Below are positions 40,929-50,241 of a stretch of DNA of 64,000 nucleotides, one piece after another (position 1 is the stretch's first letter; every line of letters starts with the position of its first letter). The stretch comes from Marinomonas sargassi (GTDB lineage: Bacteria > Pseudomonadota > Gammaproteobacteria > Pseudomonadales > Marinomonadaceae): positions 124,001 to 188,000 of the forward strand of contig NZ_JAOVZB010000002.1 in the NCBI RefSeq assembly GCF_025716875.1, written 5' to 3'. Made by a program: the position numbers and the translations under genes. Under the pieces are notes generated by a model. That model ran no database searches. It worked only from the letters and a program-made list of their open reading frames with translations, and was not told the DNA's origin.

Positions 40929-42428
40929 TTAGATTTCAAGTAGAAGACGAGCTGGGTCTTCTAGCAACTCTTTAATTGTTACCAAGAACTGTACGGCTTC
41001 TTTACCATCGATCATACGGTGGTCGTAAGAAAGTGCTAAGTACATCATTGGTTGGATAACAACTTGACCATTAACCGCCATCGGACGTTCTTGGATTTTA
41101 TGCATACCCAAGATAGCTGTTTGTGGTGGGTTGATAATAGGAGTAGACATCAAAGAACCGAAAGTACCACCATTAGTAATAGTGAAAGTACCGCCTTGCA
41201 TGTCATCCATACCCAACTTACCGTCACGACCGCGAAGAGCGAAGTCCATGATAGTAGATTCAACGTCAGCAAGCCCCATTGCTTCAGTGTTGCGAAGAAC
41301 AGGAACCATCAGACCACGGTCTGTTGATACAGCAACACCGATATCTTGGTAACCATGGTAAACCATGTCGTTACCATCGATAGATGCGTTTACTGCTGGG
41401 AAGCGTTTAAGTGCTTCAGTTGCTGCTTTAACAAAGAAAGACATGAAACCAAGCTTAGTGCCGTTGTGGGTCTTCATGAACTGGTCTTTGTACTTCTTAC
41501 GGATTTCCATAACAGGACCCATGTTAACTTCGTTGTATGTCGTTAACATTGCCGCTGTTTGTTGTGCTTCTACAAGACGTTTCGCGATAGTGGCACGTAG
41601 ACGTGTCATTGGAACACGCTTCTCAACTCGACCATCTGCACCAAGTGCAGGTGTCGCCGCTGCTACAGGAGCCGCTTTCGTTGCTGCTGGAGCAGGCGCT
41701 GCCGCTTTGCTCTTCGCTGCTGCATCTACGTCTTCTTTAGTGATGCGACCACCTTTGCCAGTACCTTTCACTTGCGCAACAGTCAAACCAGCTTCTGCTA
41801 ATGCTTTACGAGCTGCAGGACCTGCAACACCGTCTTCGTCATCAGATTCTGCTGCTGGAGCCGCTTCCGCTGCAGGCGCTGCTGCAGAACCAGATGCGCC
41901 AACTAAGAAAGTAGCAAGGACTTCATCACTTAATACGGTTTCGCCTTCCGCTTTCGCTACTGCGCCAATAACGCCATCAGCAGGAGCTACCACTTCAAGA
42001 ACAACCTTGTCTGTTTCGATGTCAACAATGTGCTCATCACGTGAACAAGCTTCACCTGGCTGCTTGTACCAAGTTGCTACTGTGCCATCCGCTACAGACT
42101 CAGGGAAAGTAGGTGTTTTGATTTCAACAGATTCTGTTGCTGCAGCTGGAGCCGCCGCCGGAGCTTCTGCAGGTGCAGACGCTGCTGCCGCGCCAGATTC
42201 AAACATAGCTAGGACTTCGTCGCTTAATACAACATCGCCTTCGCCTTTTAAAATATCTTTAAGAACGCCATCAGCAGGTGCAACAACTTCTAAGACAACT
42301 TTATCTGTCTCGATGTCGACAATGTGCTCATCACGTGCGCAGGCTTCACCTGGCTGCTTGTACCAAGTAGCAACGGTGCCGTCTGCTACAGATTCTGGAA
42401 AAGTAGGTGCTTTAATTTCAATGCTCAT
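40929..42428 (-). CDS. sucB: 2-oxoglutarate dehydrogenase E2 with two lipoyl domains
   Basis: A 499-residue dihydrolipoyl succinyltransferase. Two nearly identical lipoyl domains (about residues 1-77 and 99-176) each carry the lipoylated Lys in [11 protein letters not shown] and are joined by Ala/Pro-rich linkers. A peripheral subunit-binding domain follows ([13 protein letters not shown]...[11 protein letters not shown]). The catalytic domain ends in [17 protein letters not shown]. coli SucB has only one lipoyl domain and about 405 residues, so this one has an extra domain, probably by internal duplication. It transfers succinyl groups in the OGDH complex with SucA and Lpd. Confidence 0.97.
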
Positions 42429-42461: not shown

Positions 42462-45299
42462 CTAACCAACTAATGCGTCGTTGACCAGTGCTTCTTGCTC
42501 TTCAACATGGATTGACATGTAACCCGCTGCAGGTGCTGCAGACGAAATTCGACCCGCAAAGCGGATTTTCAATTCAGGGAACAGTTTTTCCAATACTCTA
42601 TTCATGCGGTGACGGTTAGAATGCCAAGCGCCTTGGTTTTTCGGCTCTTCTTGACACCAAACTAGGCTTTCAACATTTTTATACTGTTCCAATACAGACT
42701 CAAGATCTGCATATGGGAACGGGTATAGTTGTTCCAAACGTACCACGACAACATCATCTTTCTTCAGCTCTTCACGACGATTAATTAGGTCGTAATATAC
42801 TTTACCGCTACACAGGACGATGCGTTTTACTTTATCTGCAGCAATGCTTTCTGATGAATCAGGCAATACTGTTTTAAAGCTTCCTTCAGACAAATCTTCT
42901 AATGTTGAAGTTGCTTGCTTGTGACGCAACAAACTCTTAGGAGATAAGATAATCAGAGGACGACGCATTGGTCGAATCGCCTGACGACGAATGATATGGA
43001 AGATTTGCGACGGTGTTGTAGGAACACATACTTGAATATTGTATTCCGCACACAATTGCATGAAACGTTCTAAACGTGCAGACGAATGTTCTGGACCTTG
43101 CCCTTCATAACCATGAGGAAGCAACATAGTAAGGCCACATAGACGCCCCCACTTATGCTCACCACTGGTAATAAATTGGTCAATTACTACCTGTGCACCA
43201 TTGGCAAAATCACCAAATTGCGCTTCCCAGATAACCAAACCTTTAGGAGATGTACTTGCATAACCATATTCGAAAGCAAGAACCGCTTCTTCTGAAAGGT
43301 AAGAATCATAAAGGTCTAAGGTTGGCTGATCCGCAGATAAGTTTTTCAGAGGAATGTAAGACTCGCCGTCTTTTTGACTGTGAATAACCGCGTGACGATG
43401 GGAGAAAGTACCACGCCCAGAGTCTTGCCCTGTAATACGGATTGGGTAACCTTCTTCAAGCAAGGAAGCAAAAGCCAAAGTCTCTGCATAACCCCAGTTT
43501 AAAGGAAGCGCACCTGCTGTCATTTTATCGCGGTCTTGATAAATCTTCGAAACCTGACGCTGAACAACAATACCATCAGGAATGTTTGTTAGCTTTTTCG
43601 CTGTTTCTTGTAGCTTAGCCAATGGGTAACGAGTATCACCTGCATCAGTCCACTCAACGCCTAGGTAAGGTTTCCAATCAACAAAAGAGCCAGTCTGAGA
43701 TTCAAGCACGAGGCTTTTGGCAACGTGGCGACCATTATCCAGATCTTCACGGTTTTCATTAACCAGCTTATCCGCTTCGGCTTGAGACAACACACCTTCA
43801 GCGACCAAACGTTCAGCATACAAAGTACGAGTCGTTTTAAGTTTGTTGATGATGCCGTACATCAATGGCTGTGTACCAGACGGTTCGTCCGTTTCATTAT
43901 GACCACGACGACGGTAACAAACCATATCAATAACAACGTCACGACCAAACTCATAACGGTAATCAAGAGCAAGTTGAGTAACAAACAATACAGCTTCTGG
44001 ATCATCACCGTTAACATGAAAAATAGGTGCTTGAATAATTTTCGCTACATCAGTTGCATATTCAGTAGAACGAGAATCTTCTTGGCGGTTTGTTGTAAAA
44101 CCAACTTGGTTATTGATGACGATATGAACAGTACCACCTGTACGGTAAGCACGTGTTTGAGACATCTGGAATGTCTCCATCACCACACCCTGACCTGCAA
44201 AGGCAGCATCACCGTGAATAGAGATAGGAACAACTGTTTTACCTGAATCATCTAGGCGACGATCTTGTCGAGCCCTTACAGAGCCTTCTACTACAGGTGA
44301 AACGATTTCAAGGTGGGATGGGTTAAACGCTAGAGCGATATGAACTTCGCCACCAGCCGTCATCACATTTGAAGAGAAACCTTGGTGGTATTTAACATCA
44401 CCAGATGTGTTAACAAGTTTCTTACCTTCAAACTCATCAAATAAGTCTTTCGGGTTCTTACCTAGCGTGTTCACAAGAACGTTTAATCGACCACGGTGAG
44501 CCATGCCGATAACCACTTCTTTGGCCCCTAGGGTACCAGAGCGCTGGATCAGTTCATTCACCATTGGAATTAAACTTTCACCACCTTCAAGACCAAAACG
44601 TTTTGCTCCTGGATAGCGACTTGCTAAGTATTTTTCTAAACCTTCAGCAGCGGTTAAACGCTCTAACAGCGCTTCACGTGTTTCTTTTGAATATTTAGGA
44701 CGAGAACGAACCGATTCAACACGTTGTTGTAACCATGCTTTTTCTTGCGTATCAACGATATGCATGAACTCATAGCCAATCGTGTCACAGTAGGTTTTCT
44801 CTAAGTCAGCAATAATTTCGCTTAACTTCATATTGTCTTTATTGAAAAACAAAGAACCAACACTGAAAGGTGTATCTAAATCTGCACCTGTTAGCTGGTG
44901 ATAACTTAGATCTAAATCTGCAACTTTCTCGCGTTTCTGTAGTCCAAGCGGGTCAAGGGAGGCATGTTGATGACCACGAACACGATAAGCATCAATCAAC
45001 TGTACAACGTTGATTTGCTTTTGTTCATGGTCAGAGCCAATAGCAGGACCGGCTGATGCGGGCATAGAACGAAATTTATTTTTACCAATTTCTAAAAATT
45101 GCTCGCGGACAACTGAGTGTGGTAGATCAGTTGATTGCGCTTCGCTAATGCGAGGCAATTGATCAAAACATTTACGCCATTCTTCCGAAACTGAGTTCGG
45201 ATCAACAAGGTAGCTTTCAAAGAGATCTTCCACATATTCCAAGTTGCCACCTGAAAAGTGTGAAGTGCCCCACAGCAACTCCATTAAACTTTCGTGCAT
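42462..45299 (-). CDS. sucA: 2-oxoglutarate dehydrogenase E1 component
   Basis: A 945-residue thiamine-diphosphate enzyme decarboxylating 2-oxoglutarate. The N-terminus has the E2/E3-binding segment (LWGTSHFSGGNLEYVEDLFESYL). GMAHRGRLNVLVNTLGK, GDAAFAGQGVVMETFQMSQ and DVVIDMVCYRRRGHNETDEP carry the cofactor-binding and active-site residues, and GQDSGRGTFSHRHAV is in the pyrimidine-binding half. The length is close to E. coli SucA (933). It is separated from sdhB by about 380 bases containing a terminator-like stem. Confidence 0.97.
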   Translation of the reverse strand: MHESLMELLWGTSHFSGGNLEYVEDLFESYLVDPNSVSEEWRKCFDQLPRISEAQSTDLPHSVVREQFLEIGKNKFRSMPASAGPAIGSDHEQKQINVVQLIDAYRVRGHQHASLDPLGLQKREKVADLDLSYHQLTGADLDTPFSVGSLFFNKDNMKLSEIIADLEKTYCDTIGYEFMHIVDTQEKAWLQQRVESVRSRPKYSKETREALLERLTAAEGLEKYLASRYPGAKRFGLEGGESLIPMVNELIQRSGTLGAKEVVIGMAHRGRLNVLVNTLGKNPKDLFDEFEGKKLVNTSGDVKYHQGFSSNVMTAGGEVHIALAFNPSHLEIVSPVVEGSVRARQDRRLDDSGKTVVPISIHGDAAFAGQGVVMETFQMSQTRAYRTGGTVHIVINNQVGFTTNRQEDSRSTEYATDVAKIIQAPIFHVNGDDPEAVLFVTQLALDYRYEFGRDVVIDMVCYRRRGHNETDEPSGTQPLMYGIINKLKTTRTLYAERLVAEGVLSQAEADKLVNENREDLDNGRHVAKSLVLESQTGSFVDWKPYLGVEWTDAGDTRYPLAKLQETAKKLTNIPDGIVVQRQVSKIYQDRDKMTAGALPLNWGYAETLAFASLLEEGYPIRITGQDSGRGTFSHRHAVIHSQKDGESYIPLKNLSADQPTLDLYDSYLSEEAVLAFEYGYASTSPKGLVIWEAQFGDFANGAQVVIDQFITSGEHKWGRLCGLTMLLPHGYEGQGPEHSSARLERFMQLCAEYNIQVCVPTTPSQIFHIIRRQAIRPMRRPLIILSPKSLLRHKQATSTLEDLSEGSFKTVLPDSSESIAADKVKRIVLCSGKVYYDLINRREELKKDDVVVVRLEQLYPFPYADLESVLEQYKNVESLVWCQEEPKNQGAWHSNRHRMNRVLEKLFPELKIRFAGRISSAAPAAGYMSIHVEEQEALVNDALVG

Positions 45300-45678: not shown

Positions 45679-46389
45679 TTAAGTCGCTCTTTGCAAAAGC
45701 ATTGTACGGATATTACCAATTGCCTTAGTTGGATTAAGACCTTTAGGGCATACATTGACACAATTCATAATACCATGGCAACGGAAAACACTAAATGGGT
45801 CGTCTAAATCACTAAGACGCTCTTGGGTTGAAGTATCACGACTATCAGCCAAGAAACGATATGCTTGCAACAAACCAGAAGGTCCTATGAATTTATCTGG
45901 ATTCCACCAGAAAGAAGGACAAGCTGTTGAACAACAAGCACATAGGATACATTCATAAAGCCCATCTAGCTTTTCACGCTCTTCAGGACTTTGCAAGCGC
46001 TCAATTGCCGGCGGAGTATCTTCGTTCAACAAGTACGGACGAATCTTCTCGTACTGTTTATAGAATTGCGCCATATCCACAACCAAGTCACGAACAACAG
46101 GTAAGCCTGGTAAAGGACGCAAAATCAACTTACCGTTTTTAGACGCTTCCGATACTGTCGTAATACACGCCAAGCCGTTTTTGCCTGACATATTCATACC
46201 ATCTGAACCACACACACCTTCACGACAAGAGCGACGGTATGAAATACTTGGGTCTTCAGCTTTTAATAAATTTAAAACATCCAGAACCATCAGGTCTTTA
46301 CCTTCTGGTAACTCAATGTTGTAGTCCTGCATATAAGGAGCATCGTCCTTCTCAGGATTGTAGCGATAAATACTAACTAACATTTTCAA
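45679..46389 (-). CDS. sdhB: Succinate dehydrogenase iron-sulfur subunit
   Basis: A 236-residue SdhB carrying the three iron-sulfur clusters. The [2Fe-2S] ligands are in SCREGVCGSDGMNMSG and an upstream LACITT. The [4Fe-4S] and [3Fe-4S] ligands are in CILCACCSTACPS and CHGIMNCVNVCPKGLNP. The residues expected to face quinone (Pro, Ser, Trp in CPSFWWN and His in RCHGI) are all present, so this subunit still looks selected for quinone reduction even though the anchor genes are broken. It begins six bases after sdhA. Confidence 0.97.
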   Translation of the reverse strand: MKMLVSIYRYNPEKDDAPYMQDYNIELPEGKDLMVLDVLNLLKAEDPSISYRRSCREGVCGSDGMNMSGKNGLACITTVSEASKNGKLILRPLPGLPVVRDLVVDMAQFYKQYEKIRPYLLNEDTPPAIERLQSPEEREKLDGLYECILCACCSTACPSFWWNPDKFIGPSGLLQAYRFLADSRDTSTQERLSDLDDPFSVFRCHGIMNCVNVCPKGLNPTKAIGNIRTMLLQRAT

Positions 46390-46395
46390 AACTCC

Positions 46396-48168
46396 TTAGT
46401 AGGAACGGACTTTAGGCGGGAAAGCGTCCATTGTTTTAGGCGCAAAGTTTACATCTCGCTTAGTCACTTTCTTGTCCGCTGGATGGAATAATGAATGCTT
46501 CAACCAATTTTCATCATCACGTTCAGTAAAGTCATTTCGAGCGTGCGCTCCACGACTTTCTTTACGGAATTCTGCTGGTATCGCAGTCGCTTCTGCAACT
46601 TCTAGCAAGTTTTCAAGTTCAAGCGCTTCGATACGCGCCGTGTTGAATGCTTCACTCTTATCTTCAAGGTGTAGATTCTCAACACGTGTACGAATTTCTG
46701 CTAGCTGAGACAAGCCTTTTTGCATTGCATCACCGTCACGGAATACACCGAAGTAAAGCTGCATAACCTTCTGAAGATCAGCACGAACAGCAGCAACACT
46801 TTCACCACCTGTGGATGCATTCAAACGATTCAAACGAGACAAAGCTTGCTCAACATTAGTATCGTCAGCATCAAGGGAGTCAAAACCTTCATCTAGGGAC
46901 TTTTTAACCTGAATACCTACAGAACGGCCAAATACAACCAAATCAAGTAATGAGTTACCACCTAGGCGGTTAGCACCGTGTACAGATACACAAGCCGCTT
47001 CACCACAAGCATATAAACCATCAATAATAACGTCTTCGCCCGCTTCATTCATAGCCAGCGCTTGACCACCAACATTCGTTGGAATACCACCCATCATATA
47101 GTGACAAGTAGGAATAACAGGAATTGGCTCTTTCACTGGATCAACGTGCGCAAAGGTACGAGACAACTCAAGAATACCAGGCAAACGTTTATTAAGCGTT
47201 TCTTCACCCAAGTGATCCAATTTAAGCAATACGTGGTCACCATCCGGACCACAACCACGACCTTCAAGAATCTCAAGGACCATTGAACGCGCTACCACGT
47301 CACGACCTGCAAGGTCTTTTGCGTTTGGCGCATAACGCTCCATAAAGCGCTCACCGTCTTTATTGATTAGATAACCACCTTCACCACGGCAACCTTCTGT
47401 TACCAAGGTACCAGCACCGTAAATACCAGTTGGGTGGAATTGCCACATTTCCATATCCTGCATAGGGAAACCAGCACGTAACGCCATACCAACACCATCA
47501 CCTGTATTGATGTGAGCATTGGTTGTTGATTGATAGATACGACCCGCACCACCTGTTGCAATAACAGTCGCTTTCGCTTTTAGGTAAACGGTTTCACCTG
47601 TTTCGATACAAATAGCGATCACACCAACAACAGCGTCTTCATTATTTTTAACTAAATCTGTCGCATACCACTCATTGAAGAAAGTAGTACCGCCTTTTAA
47701 GTTACCTTGATAAAGGGTATGCAATAACGCATGTCCTGTACGGTCAGCCGCAGCACATGTACGAGCAGCCTGACCACCTTTACCGAAATCTTTAGACTGA
47801 CCACCAAATGGGCGCTGATAAATACGACCTTGATCAGTACGAGAGAAAGGCAACCCCATATGCTCTAGTTCAAAAACGGCCTGAGGACCTACAGAACACA
47901 TGTACTCAATAGCATCCTGATCACCGATGTAATCAGAACCTTTCACCGTGTCATACATGTGCCAACGCCAATCGTCATTAGGATCATCACTGGCAATCGC
48001 ACAAGTAATACCACCTTGAGCAGATACTGTATGTGAACGAGTTGGAAATACTTTTGTTACACAAGCTGTATTCAACCCTGATTCTGTCAATTGAAGAGCT
48101 GCACGCATGCCCGCGCCACCGCCTCCAATAACAATGGCATCGAATGATATCGTACGAATATTTGCCAT
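46396..48168 (-). CDS. sdhA: Succinate dehydrogenase flavoprotein subunit
   Basis: A 590-residue SdhA. The FAD motif [15 protein letters not shown], the flavinylation region [15 protein letters not shown] (covalent FAD on His) and the active-site stretches [17 protein letters not shown] and [23 protein letters not shown] are intact. The length matches the family. The start codon overlaps, by TAATG, what would have been the sdhD stop. The membrane-anchor genes upstream are degraded. SdhA could still be made, but assembly into complex II would need another anchor. Confidence 0.97.
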
Positions 48169-48497
48169 TACTTAATAATCCCCAAATAACTTCAACGTTC
48201 CACACAATGTAAATCACACTGCTAGAGCGCATACTGACTGAAAGAAAAAACCTGCAATTATGAATCTATGAAGCCAGCTTGATCTGCCAACAATCAAGGA
48301 TCCAAAATGCATACCTATAAATCAAATACCATTAATGAAAATAACTTCACCTTTGCTACCTAATGACAAAAAGCTCCACCGCTTATGCTCATAATCAAAA
48401 TAGACAATCGGTTAACCATTAATGGCGTTAGTACTTAAGTCCAGCAAATCGGTAAAAACACGACGCATTGACATATTAGTACAAAACCGTTTTTCAC
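48169..48497 (-). pseudogene. sdhC: Degraded, deletion-fused remnant of sdhC-sdhD
   Basis: No intact frame of 60 residues or more exists where sdhC and sdhD should be. In different frames, parts of SdhD are recognisable: KLFSLMVF (48347-48324, middle helix), RFIIAGFFFQSVCALAV (48267-48217) and IYIVWNVEVIWG (48214-48179, the last helix). The latter two are joined by a frameshift. The bases at 48435-48416 (AGTACT...ATTAATGG) resemble the SILHRISG codons of SdhC, after a possible GTG start at 48497. About 330 bases remain of an expected ~720, so a deletion fused the front of sdhC to the middle of sdhD, followed by frameshifts. Confidence 0.75.
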
Positions 48498-48586
48498 TTA
48501 CCGTCTCATAAACCAAAATACAAAATAAAGGCGACTATCCTTTATTTACCTTTAAAATAAAGGCGGTACGAAAACTTCGGAGGCTA

Positions 48587-48616
48587 ATTATAGACCAGCA
48601 AAAAATATTAAGACAA
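48587..48616 (-). promoter_or_regulatory. Predicted sigma-70 promoter for the sdh operon
   Basis: TTGTCT (48616-48611) and TATAAT (48592-48587) are spaced by 18 bases on the minus strand, about 90 bases before the likely sdhC remnant. It suggests that sdhA and sdhB are still transcribed. Confidence 0.5.
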
Positions 48617-48957
48617 ATAGACAAGAGCAGAGGTTTTCAATGATCGCCATTCAGTAAATGAATGTAGGCATAAGCCAAAACAATAATGGTACAAAATTAC
48701 AACCCAACAAAAACAACGAAAAAACCAAAAATCCCTATAAATCATACACTTAATAGTTAAATCCAAATCCAAAAAAAACATTAAGCCTAAATTTTTGTTA
48801 GTTTCTTACAAAATATGTTCTTTAAAATCATCTCAAGTCATAATTATCAAGATTGACTTTTGTACTACATAAACAGTATTTTTTCCGCACCTTCTAGAAC
48901 TAAAGAGGCACTTTAAGACCTCTAAGCACTAGAAACAGAATACGAAGGAGACCATAA

Positions 48958-50241
48958 ATGGCTGATAAAAAAGCAACACTTACAGTGGACGGGATCGATA
49001 AAACCATCGAACTCCCTGTTCTTTCAGGTACACTAGGTGCGGATGTTGTAGACGTTCGTAGCTTAGGCTCACAAGGTGTTTTCACTTACGATCCAGGCTT
49101 TATGTCTACTGGCTCATGCGAATCATCTATAACTTATATAGATGGTGAAGCAGGTGTGCTTTTACACCGTGGCTATCCAATTGCTCAACTCGCTGAGCAC
49201 TCAGATTACCTAGAAACTTGTTACTTATTGCTTTATGGAGAACTTCCTAGCAAAGAAGAAAAAGTAGAATTTGTTAAGACGGTTAAAAATCACACAATGA
49301 TTAACCAGTCTATGCACAAATTCATCGAAGGCTTTAGAAATGACGCCCATCCAATGGCTATTATGTGTGGCTTAGTAGGTGCATTATCTGCTTTCTATCA
49401 AGATCAAATGGATATCAGCAACCCTAGACATCGCGAAATCGCAGCATTCCGTTTGATTTCCAAAATGCCTACACTTGCAGCTACATGCTACAAGTACTCT
49501 AAAGATCAGCCTGTTATGCATCCTCGTAACGACTTATCTTACGCAGAAAACTTCTTATACATGATGTTTGGAACACCATGTGAAGAATACAAAGTGAACC
49601 CAGTATTTGCGAAAGCAATGGACAAGATCTTTATTCTTCACGCTGATCACGAACAAAACGCATCTACTTCTACAGTACGTTTAGCGGGTTCTTCTGGTGC
49701 CAATCCATTTGCATGTATTGCTTCTGGTATCGCGACACTTTGGGGGCCTGCTCACGGTGGTGCAAACGAAGCTGTATTGACTATGCTTGAAGAAATCGGT
49801 GATGTCGAAAACATCGATAAGTTCGTAGCTAAAGCAAAAGATAAGAGCGATCCTTTCCGCCTAATGGGCTTTGGCCATCGCGTTTACAAGAACTTCGACC
49901 CACGTGCAAAAGTTATGCGTGAGACTTGTGATGAAGTACTTGCTGAGTTGGGTATGTCTAACGACCCTCTTCTCAAAATTGCTAAGCGCCTTGAACAAAT
50001 CGCCCTTGAAGACCCTTACTTCATTGAGCGTAAGCTTTACCCTAACGTTGACTTCTACTCTGGCATCATCATGAAAGCGATTGGCATACCAACAAGTATG
50101 TTTACAGTGATTTTCGCTATGTCTAGAACGATTGGTTGGATCACTCACTGGAACGAAATGATCAGTGGGCCTTACAAGATTGGTCGTCCTCGTCAGCTTT
50201 ATGTTGGTAAGCCTCAGCGCGATTACCCAAGCGATAAATAA
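48958..50241 (+). CDS. gltA: Citrate synthase (type II, hexameric)
   Basis: A 427-residue citrate synthase condensing acetyl-CoA and oxaloacetate, divergent from the sdh operon. [46 protein letters not shown] contains the active-site His pair, and [15 protein letters not shown] gives the third catalytic segment with the Asp further on. GAAGGAG precedes the ATG by 7 bases. The long N-terminal domain indicates the NADH-regulated gram-negative type. It ends at a perfect palindromic terminator. Confidence 0.97.

Follow-up and report, generated by a model that had tools for sequence, protein, structure and literature searches.

Yeast and some protists are known to have a complex II without heme, and a heme-free laboratory variant of Escherichia coli SdhCD is said to have been described by Tran in 2007. 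According to excerpts of one account (PMC3290573), the E. coli enzyme contains a single bis-His heme b, ubiquinone is reduced directly by the last iron-sulfur cluster, and a heme-free variant remains significantly active, if at lower rates, and allows growth on succinate; the same text terms the role of heme b highly ambiguous. In yeast complex II, as described in part of PMC13066397, heme is absent, Tyr stands in for one ligand and hydrogen bonds do the bridging; this heme-free enzyme is kept in type C, with a request for subdivision. An anchor without heme is also found in type-D FrdABCD (excerpt of PMC10238741). No report of a naturally heme-free bacterial type-C enzyme was found among titles and the opening parts of abstracts in the open-licence PMC literature, which is weak evidence of novelty.

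The window analysed here is a stretch of 64,000 nucleotides (G000:C5:124001-188000) from the 3.14 Mb genome of Marinomonas sargassi (G000), a draft assembly of 12 contigs with a completeness of 99.99% and a contamination of 0.02. Its minus strand carries sdhA (46396–48168; flavoprotein subunit, 590 aa, found in the ORF list; TIGR01816, 960 bits against a cut-off of 727) and sdhB (45679–46389; iron-sulfur subunit, 236 aa, TTG start; TIGR00384, 282 bits, cut-off 88; PRK05950, 359 bits, cut-off 228). Both pass NCBIfam cut-offs and are intact, as the original prediction held. Downstream in the same TCA cluster lies sucA (42462–45299, minus strand; from the ORF list and named from its sequence), and gltA (48958–50241, plus strand; citrate synthase, TIGR01798, 764 bits) is the divergent neighbour. 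Two minor features were seen in this region: the TTG start of sdhB at 46389 is followed two codons further on by an in-frame ATG, and SucB (40929–42428, minus strand) has, by eye, two near-identical N-terminal lipoyl domains. Searches of the whole genome returned one SdhB and one SdhA above the cut-off; a second, weaker match in the SdhA search (557 aa, 390.7 bits against a cut-off of 567.3) is probably NadB.

No sdhC or sdhD frame appears in the ORF list for the 789-bp gap between sdhA and gltA (48169–48957). The original prediction allowed that another anchor pair might exist elsewhere, and the whole-genome search bears this out: an intact pair, which we call sdhC2-sdhD2 (G000:C5:500357-501081), lies ~328 kb from sdhAB on the same 522-kb contig, beside genes for a PAS-GGDEF protein and a GGDEF-EAL protein. 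The two genes overlap and encode 126 and 119 aa. SdhC2 passes TIGR02970 (96.5 bits, cut-off 52.3) and matches PF01127 with 82.6 bits, the single match to that family in the genome (G000:C5:500725-501081); SdhD2 passes TIGR02968 (56.1 bits, cut-off 41.8) and has no Pfam match at E 0.001. Neither protein reaches the cut-off of PRK09487 or PRK09488, which are narrower models of the E. coli type. In PDB 1nek, the E. coli type-C SdhCDAB, SdhC2 matches chain C (E 1e-30) and SdhD2 chain D (E 1e-6). SdhD2 has a 3-residue insertion relative to nine others. In a crude hydropathy scan SdhD2 fits three helices, and the middle helix of SdhC2 is seen at a lower threshold only. Since one SdhC pair, one SdhB and one SdhA pass the cut-offs, sdhC2D2 is the sole anchor pair found for SdhAB in this genome. 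The NCBIfam matches of SdhC2 and SdhD2 at E 0.001 are to SDH models and include no Frd anchor model. Judged by family, the two subunits would therefore belong with type C anchors; they resemble the FrdABCD anchor in their predicted lack of heme and would not be type D (FrdCD) anchors.

The pair departs from the E. coli enzyme at the heme. Residues are given in E. coli SdhC/SdhD numbering; we take SdhC His84 to be a heme b ligand in that organism and SdhC S27 and R31 and SdhD D82 and Y83 to be part of the quinone site. In excerpts of PMC3290573, SdhD H71 is a heme ligand and A23 is close to it. In the alignment, SdhC2 has Tyr for His84 and SdhD2 has Asn for His71, and thus both axial heme b positions are changed; at the position where chains 2wu2_C and 2wu5_D differ from 1nek, the G000 query likewise has Tyr and Asn. 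An early tally over 163 rows, repeats and the E. coli reference included, gave 39 Tyr and 124 His at SdhC 84 and 39 Asn and 124 His at SdhD 71, with Asn at all 39 Tyr loci. Among 93 anchor pairs, a set of our own choosing, 60 are His/His (ordinary), 33 are Tyr/Asn (variant) and none is mixed. The positions at which the groups differ, in the direction ordinary to variant, are F38W, K71Q (30/33), H84Y and M94Q in SdhC, and A23N, H71N, I74L (32/33) and G75A in SdhD, where position 76 is Gly in the variants versus Leu in 54 of 60 ordinary pairs. SdhD N23 and SdhC W38 are fixed in all 33 variants, and SdhC S27, H30, R31 and H91 and SdhD R20, D82 and Y83 are kept in every one of them. To judge by these residues, the variants would share the type C quinone site (SdhC S27, R31; SdhD D82, Y83) and would lack the one axial heme b ligand per anchor subunit by which type C is defined. 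We therefore call SdhC2D2 a heme-ligand-less relative of type C and not a member by that definition.

We consider it highly probable, from the sequences compared here, that M. sargassi forms one complex II from two loci, with the variant pair anchoring SdhAB in trans and passing electrons to ubiquinone without heme b. SdhAB would still be made from the original TCA operon, in which part of the ordinary, heme-ligand sdhCD has been deleted and the remainder has decayed, and the membrane anchor would come from sdhC2-sdhD2. In this subfamily SdhC Tyr84 and SdhD Asn71 replace the ligands, neighbouring residues are changed as well (SdhD Asn23, SdhC Trp38), and electrons would pass from the last iron-sulfur cluster directly to ubiquinone in the conserved quinone site. 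Polar side chains would hold SdhC2 and SdhD2 to each other, on the model of the heme-free yeast enzyme; by this analogy Tyr84, Asn71 and Asn23 may bridge the two subunits. SdhC2D2 would be expected to assemble with SdhAB and the complex to be active.

The likeness to described enzymes is partial. With the E. coli SdhCDAB the M. sargassi system shares homologous SdhC and SdhD, quinone-site residues and the SdhAB family; there, however, heme b is bis-His ligated, whereas the M. sargassi anchors have other residues at both ligand positions and their genes lie away from sdhAB. The heme-free E. coli SdhCD is a laboratory mutant with lower rates, whereas the present pair is a natural, selected form that is predicted to be heme-free. 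Saccharomyces cerevisiae complex II also has type C-like anchors and a His ligand changed to Tyr (part of PMC13066397), the heme loss and bonding being our reading on the M. sargassi side. Unlike the M. sargassi pair, in which both ligands are changed and Tyr lies in SdhC and Asn in SdhD, the yeast enzyme keeps His156 of Sdh3 and has its Tyr in Sdh4, and a second yeast anchor, the paralogue Shh4, does carry the His (same excerpts). The loss of heme ligands in yeast and in the variant anchors would seem to be of independent origin.

Absence of heme from the variant anchors is likely and not certain, because E. coli SdhCD with one ligand mutated can reportedly retain heme, to go by the title of a 2001 paper, and here both ligands are lost. 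That report, and the invariance of SdhC His30 and His91 in both groups, would fit an alternative in which other residues, such as SdhC Tyr84, His30 or His91, still ligate heme b in the variant anchors. We regard this as unlikely: all 33 variant pairs have lost both ligands, neighbouring residues change with them (SdhD A23N and G75A, SdhC F38W), and in yeast the change of one ligand to Tyr accompanies a heme-free enzyme (PMC13066397, in part).

Across 48 Marinomonas genomes the ordinary pair occurs alone in 36, both pairs occur together in 11, and the variant alone occurs in M. sargassi; counted by SdhC, the variant is present in 12 genomes and the ordinary form in 47, whose pairs are all His/His. 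Exactly one SdhB passes the cut-off in each of the 48, and 11 species therefore have one SdhB and two anchor pairs, including M. communis (G014), M. transparens, M. ushuaiensis, M. colpomeniae, M. aquiplantarum, M. profundimaris, M. algarum and Marinomonas sp. TW1. Occurrence of the variant is patchy over a genus tree of SdhA, SdhB and GltA. A tree of anchor pairs calculated without the two ligand columns, and excluding G108 (frameshifted sdhC), G159 (identical in place and scores to Porticoccus W117) and a second, partial SdhC of G167 (Tyr84), separates the 60 ordinary from the 33 variant pairs with a support of 100. The 47 ordinary Marinomonas pairs are one clade (100) within the ordinary pairs. 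A recent duplication inside Marinomonas is not favoured, because the variants lie outside that clade. The 12 Marinomonas variants do not form a single clade: 11 group together (94), and the M. sargassi copy branches first of all variants (84), a placement that may come from long branches.

Beyond the genus, 24 of 390 genomes sampled from the order scored at least 86.9 bits with a profile of the variant SdhD. Residues were read for these 24 top matches, all Tyr/Asn (G108 with its frameshifted sdhC), and for the next six, all His/His. A sample of 369 genomes from the class gave so high a score in M. sargassi only; the other match at E 1e-20, in G476, was His/His. Seven of eight outside genomes taken from named records have one SdhC, and all seven are Tyr/Asn; in each of 15 genomes from the order, all SdhC matches above the cut-off have Tyr84, with G159 seemingly a repeat of one of the eight. 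Of 23 genomes with the variant, 20 yielded an SdhB; none was found in G159, G075 and G312, the first two of which look like one organism. In G108 (L280:1325-1700) the sole matched sdhC is split over two frames, by either an assembly frameshift or a real break. Pseudoalteromonas phenolica (L065, L166), a member of another order, has both an ordinary and a heme-ligand-less anchor pair, which suggests transfer of the variant between orders.

Gene order was read in seven variant genomes. IMCC1989 (G071), G230 and G072 have gltA, the divergent sdhAB-sucAB-lpd-sucCD and then sdhC2D2; G215 and G046 have sdhC2D2 after gltA; in G342 and G149 the pair is apart from sdhAB, near another lpd and sucB in the latter. 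It thus lies inside the TCA cluster, after gltA or sucCD, in five of the seven. The 12 Marinomonas copies mostly have no common context. G004, G009, G013 and G032 have the same place, and partial overlaps join G033 with G063, G002 with G063 and G000 with G002, the last including GGDEF proteins that are perhaps not orthologous. No stops were found in 11 Marinomonas sdhC2D2 copies. Ratios of dN/dS were 0.06–0.14 in 12 congener comparisons excluding M. sargassi, while in one more pair neither gene yielded a ratio. Where M. sargassi was one of the two genomes, the ratios were 0.12 and 0.15 (SdhC2) and 0.36 (SdhD2); dS was high in these, and three of the six comparisons could not be computed. The pair is under purifying selection in congeners.

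These data bear on the other outcome allowed by the original prediction, that SdhAB is soluble and complex II broken, in which case sdhC2D2 would have some other role. The distance of the pair from sdhAB, its GGDEF/EAL neighbours and its presence in 11 congeners alongside a complete ordinary set could be cited in its favour. A broken enzyme does not follow, however, and was rejected, because an intact anchor pair exists; with a single SdhB and a single SdhA over the cut-off beside it, soluble SdhAB is not the best reading. In other genomes sdhC2D2 is the only SdhC and mostly sits in the TCA cluster, and the M. sargassi SdhA and SdhB are 88.8–96.3% and 87.7–94.9% identical to those of 47 congeners (98.9% for one partial SdhA match), with quinone-site residues kept. 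We consider a broken complex II very improbable.

What became of the ordinary anchors can be followed in the sdhA–gltA gap. Among the 47 other Marinomonas genomes, all have sdhC and sdhD matched there along nearly their whole length, in a gap of 1272–1313 bp (1282–1294 bp in 11 congeners used for alignment); this comparison of sister intervals had been called for, and it follows from it that the interval once held sdhCD. By blastn the M. sargassi gap aligns to the congener gap as two collinear blocks (canonical positions 1–443 and ~946–1293). The gltA-side block matches all 11 congeners with 66–72% identity, ending at canonical position 386–443. The sdhA-side block matches canonical sdhD in nine of 11 (best E 2e-19, to L051), with merely 19 bases in L045 and no match at E 1 in L047. 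It is a relic of ordinary sdhD, decayed with indels and stops (48169–48513, minus strand). In a pairwise alignment, 48513–48169 is identical to the intact L051 gene at 218 of 335 aligned bases, with several frame-shifting gaps; the local score of 77 compares with at most 31 across 200 single-base shuffles. Scores of 29–77 against 11 ordinary sdhD genes and 13–24 against 10 variant sdhD genes place the relic closer to ordinary sdhD. SdhD fragments appear in two frames, FFFQSVCALAV in one and VIYIVWNVEVIWGL in the other. A Mafft alignment placed just the final 80 bp, and the limits of the relic are those from blastn and pairwise alignment.

The original prediction of anchor genes lost beside sdhAB, with pieces of SdhD in at least two frames, agrees with this alignment and the shuffles. 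Its remnant does begin at 48169 and extends past 48497 to ~48513; a probable SdhC start was sought in the alignment of the gap and none was seen, sdhC and the stretch before it being gone. Gap lengths and the flanking blocks put the deletion junction at approximately 48513/48514, with a loss of ~500 bp that took the whole of sdhC and the sequence immediately before it. The retained gltA/sdh divergent upstream region (48514–48957, minus strand) still holds, upstream of sdhA, a candidate sdh promoter (48587–48616, minus strand; TATAAT at 48592–48587), called by eye in a conserved alignment block. That 48150–48600 is an assembly or sequencing artefact, to which a draft assembly might be open, is scarcely credible, since one deletion next to a 65%-identical relic whose substitutions are scattered is the pattern of long decay and not of read errors, and an intact alternative anchor pair is present.

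Loss of sdhCD at the TCA operon is particular to M. sargassi among the 48 Marinomonas genomes. In the seven variant genomes read, tblastn at E 1e-6 gave no SdhC or SdhD match between gltA and sdhA in any; dead ordinary sdh genes were sought in M. sargassi alone. With other lineages having the variant alone and no such match between gltA and sdhA, M. sargassi seems to be at a late stage of a replacement that they have already finished. Having lost its ordinary anchors and kept the ligand-less pair, M. sargassi is therefore a natural test of what heme is for. One genus offers species with heme-type anchors only, species that combine both anchors with a single SdhB, and one species with heme-ligand-less anchors only; lineages outside Marinomonas with heme-ligand-less anchors alone extend the comparison. 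Anchor swaps within Marinomonas would reveal the part that heme b plays in rate, stability, superoxide and iron cost.

We tentatively suggest, as a possibility, that marine Pseudomonadales have a movable heme-sparing anchor module: one SdhAB would be common to two anchors, the heme-free one would be induced through Fur in iron shortage (for example in M. communis), and the heme-binding one would have been displaced for good in M. sargassi and several lineages. Six consensus motifs were scanned in the 12 variant upstream regions, where FNR, ArcA, CRP, IscR and OxyR gave nothing clear. The best Fur-like matches, at −56 to −64, were in G014 (16/19, shuffle fraction 0), G063 (14/19, 0) and G033, G010 and G057 (13/19 each; 0.07, 0.075 and 0.1). 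Those in M. sargassi (12/19, shuffle fraction 0.48) and six other Marinomonas (0.7–1.0) were not above chance. Matches of at least 13/19 also occur in 18 of 221 ORF upstream regions of these loci, some being the sites just named, and in 3 of 47 gltA upstream regions. In M. communis the 19-mer stands at −57 of sdhC2, and the whole genome has 7 matches at 5 places with at most 3 mismatches, versus 0 for a reversed-pattern control. The other places are between a TonB receptor gene and a PhoX gene, a flavodoxin-reductase gene and a PepSY-DUF2271 pair, a D-lactate dehydrogenase gene and a predicted metal exporter, and the end of a GntR-type regulator and the start of a 139-aa frame. We treat putative iron (Fur) control of sdhC2D2 in some relatives as a lead only. 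Upstream of sdhC2 in M. sargassi itself, ~76–111 bp before the start, is a perfect 13-bp inverted repeat with a 10-bp spacer (GATAAATACAAAT...ATTTGTATTTATC; L002:11158-11193), which could be an operator.
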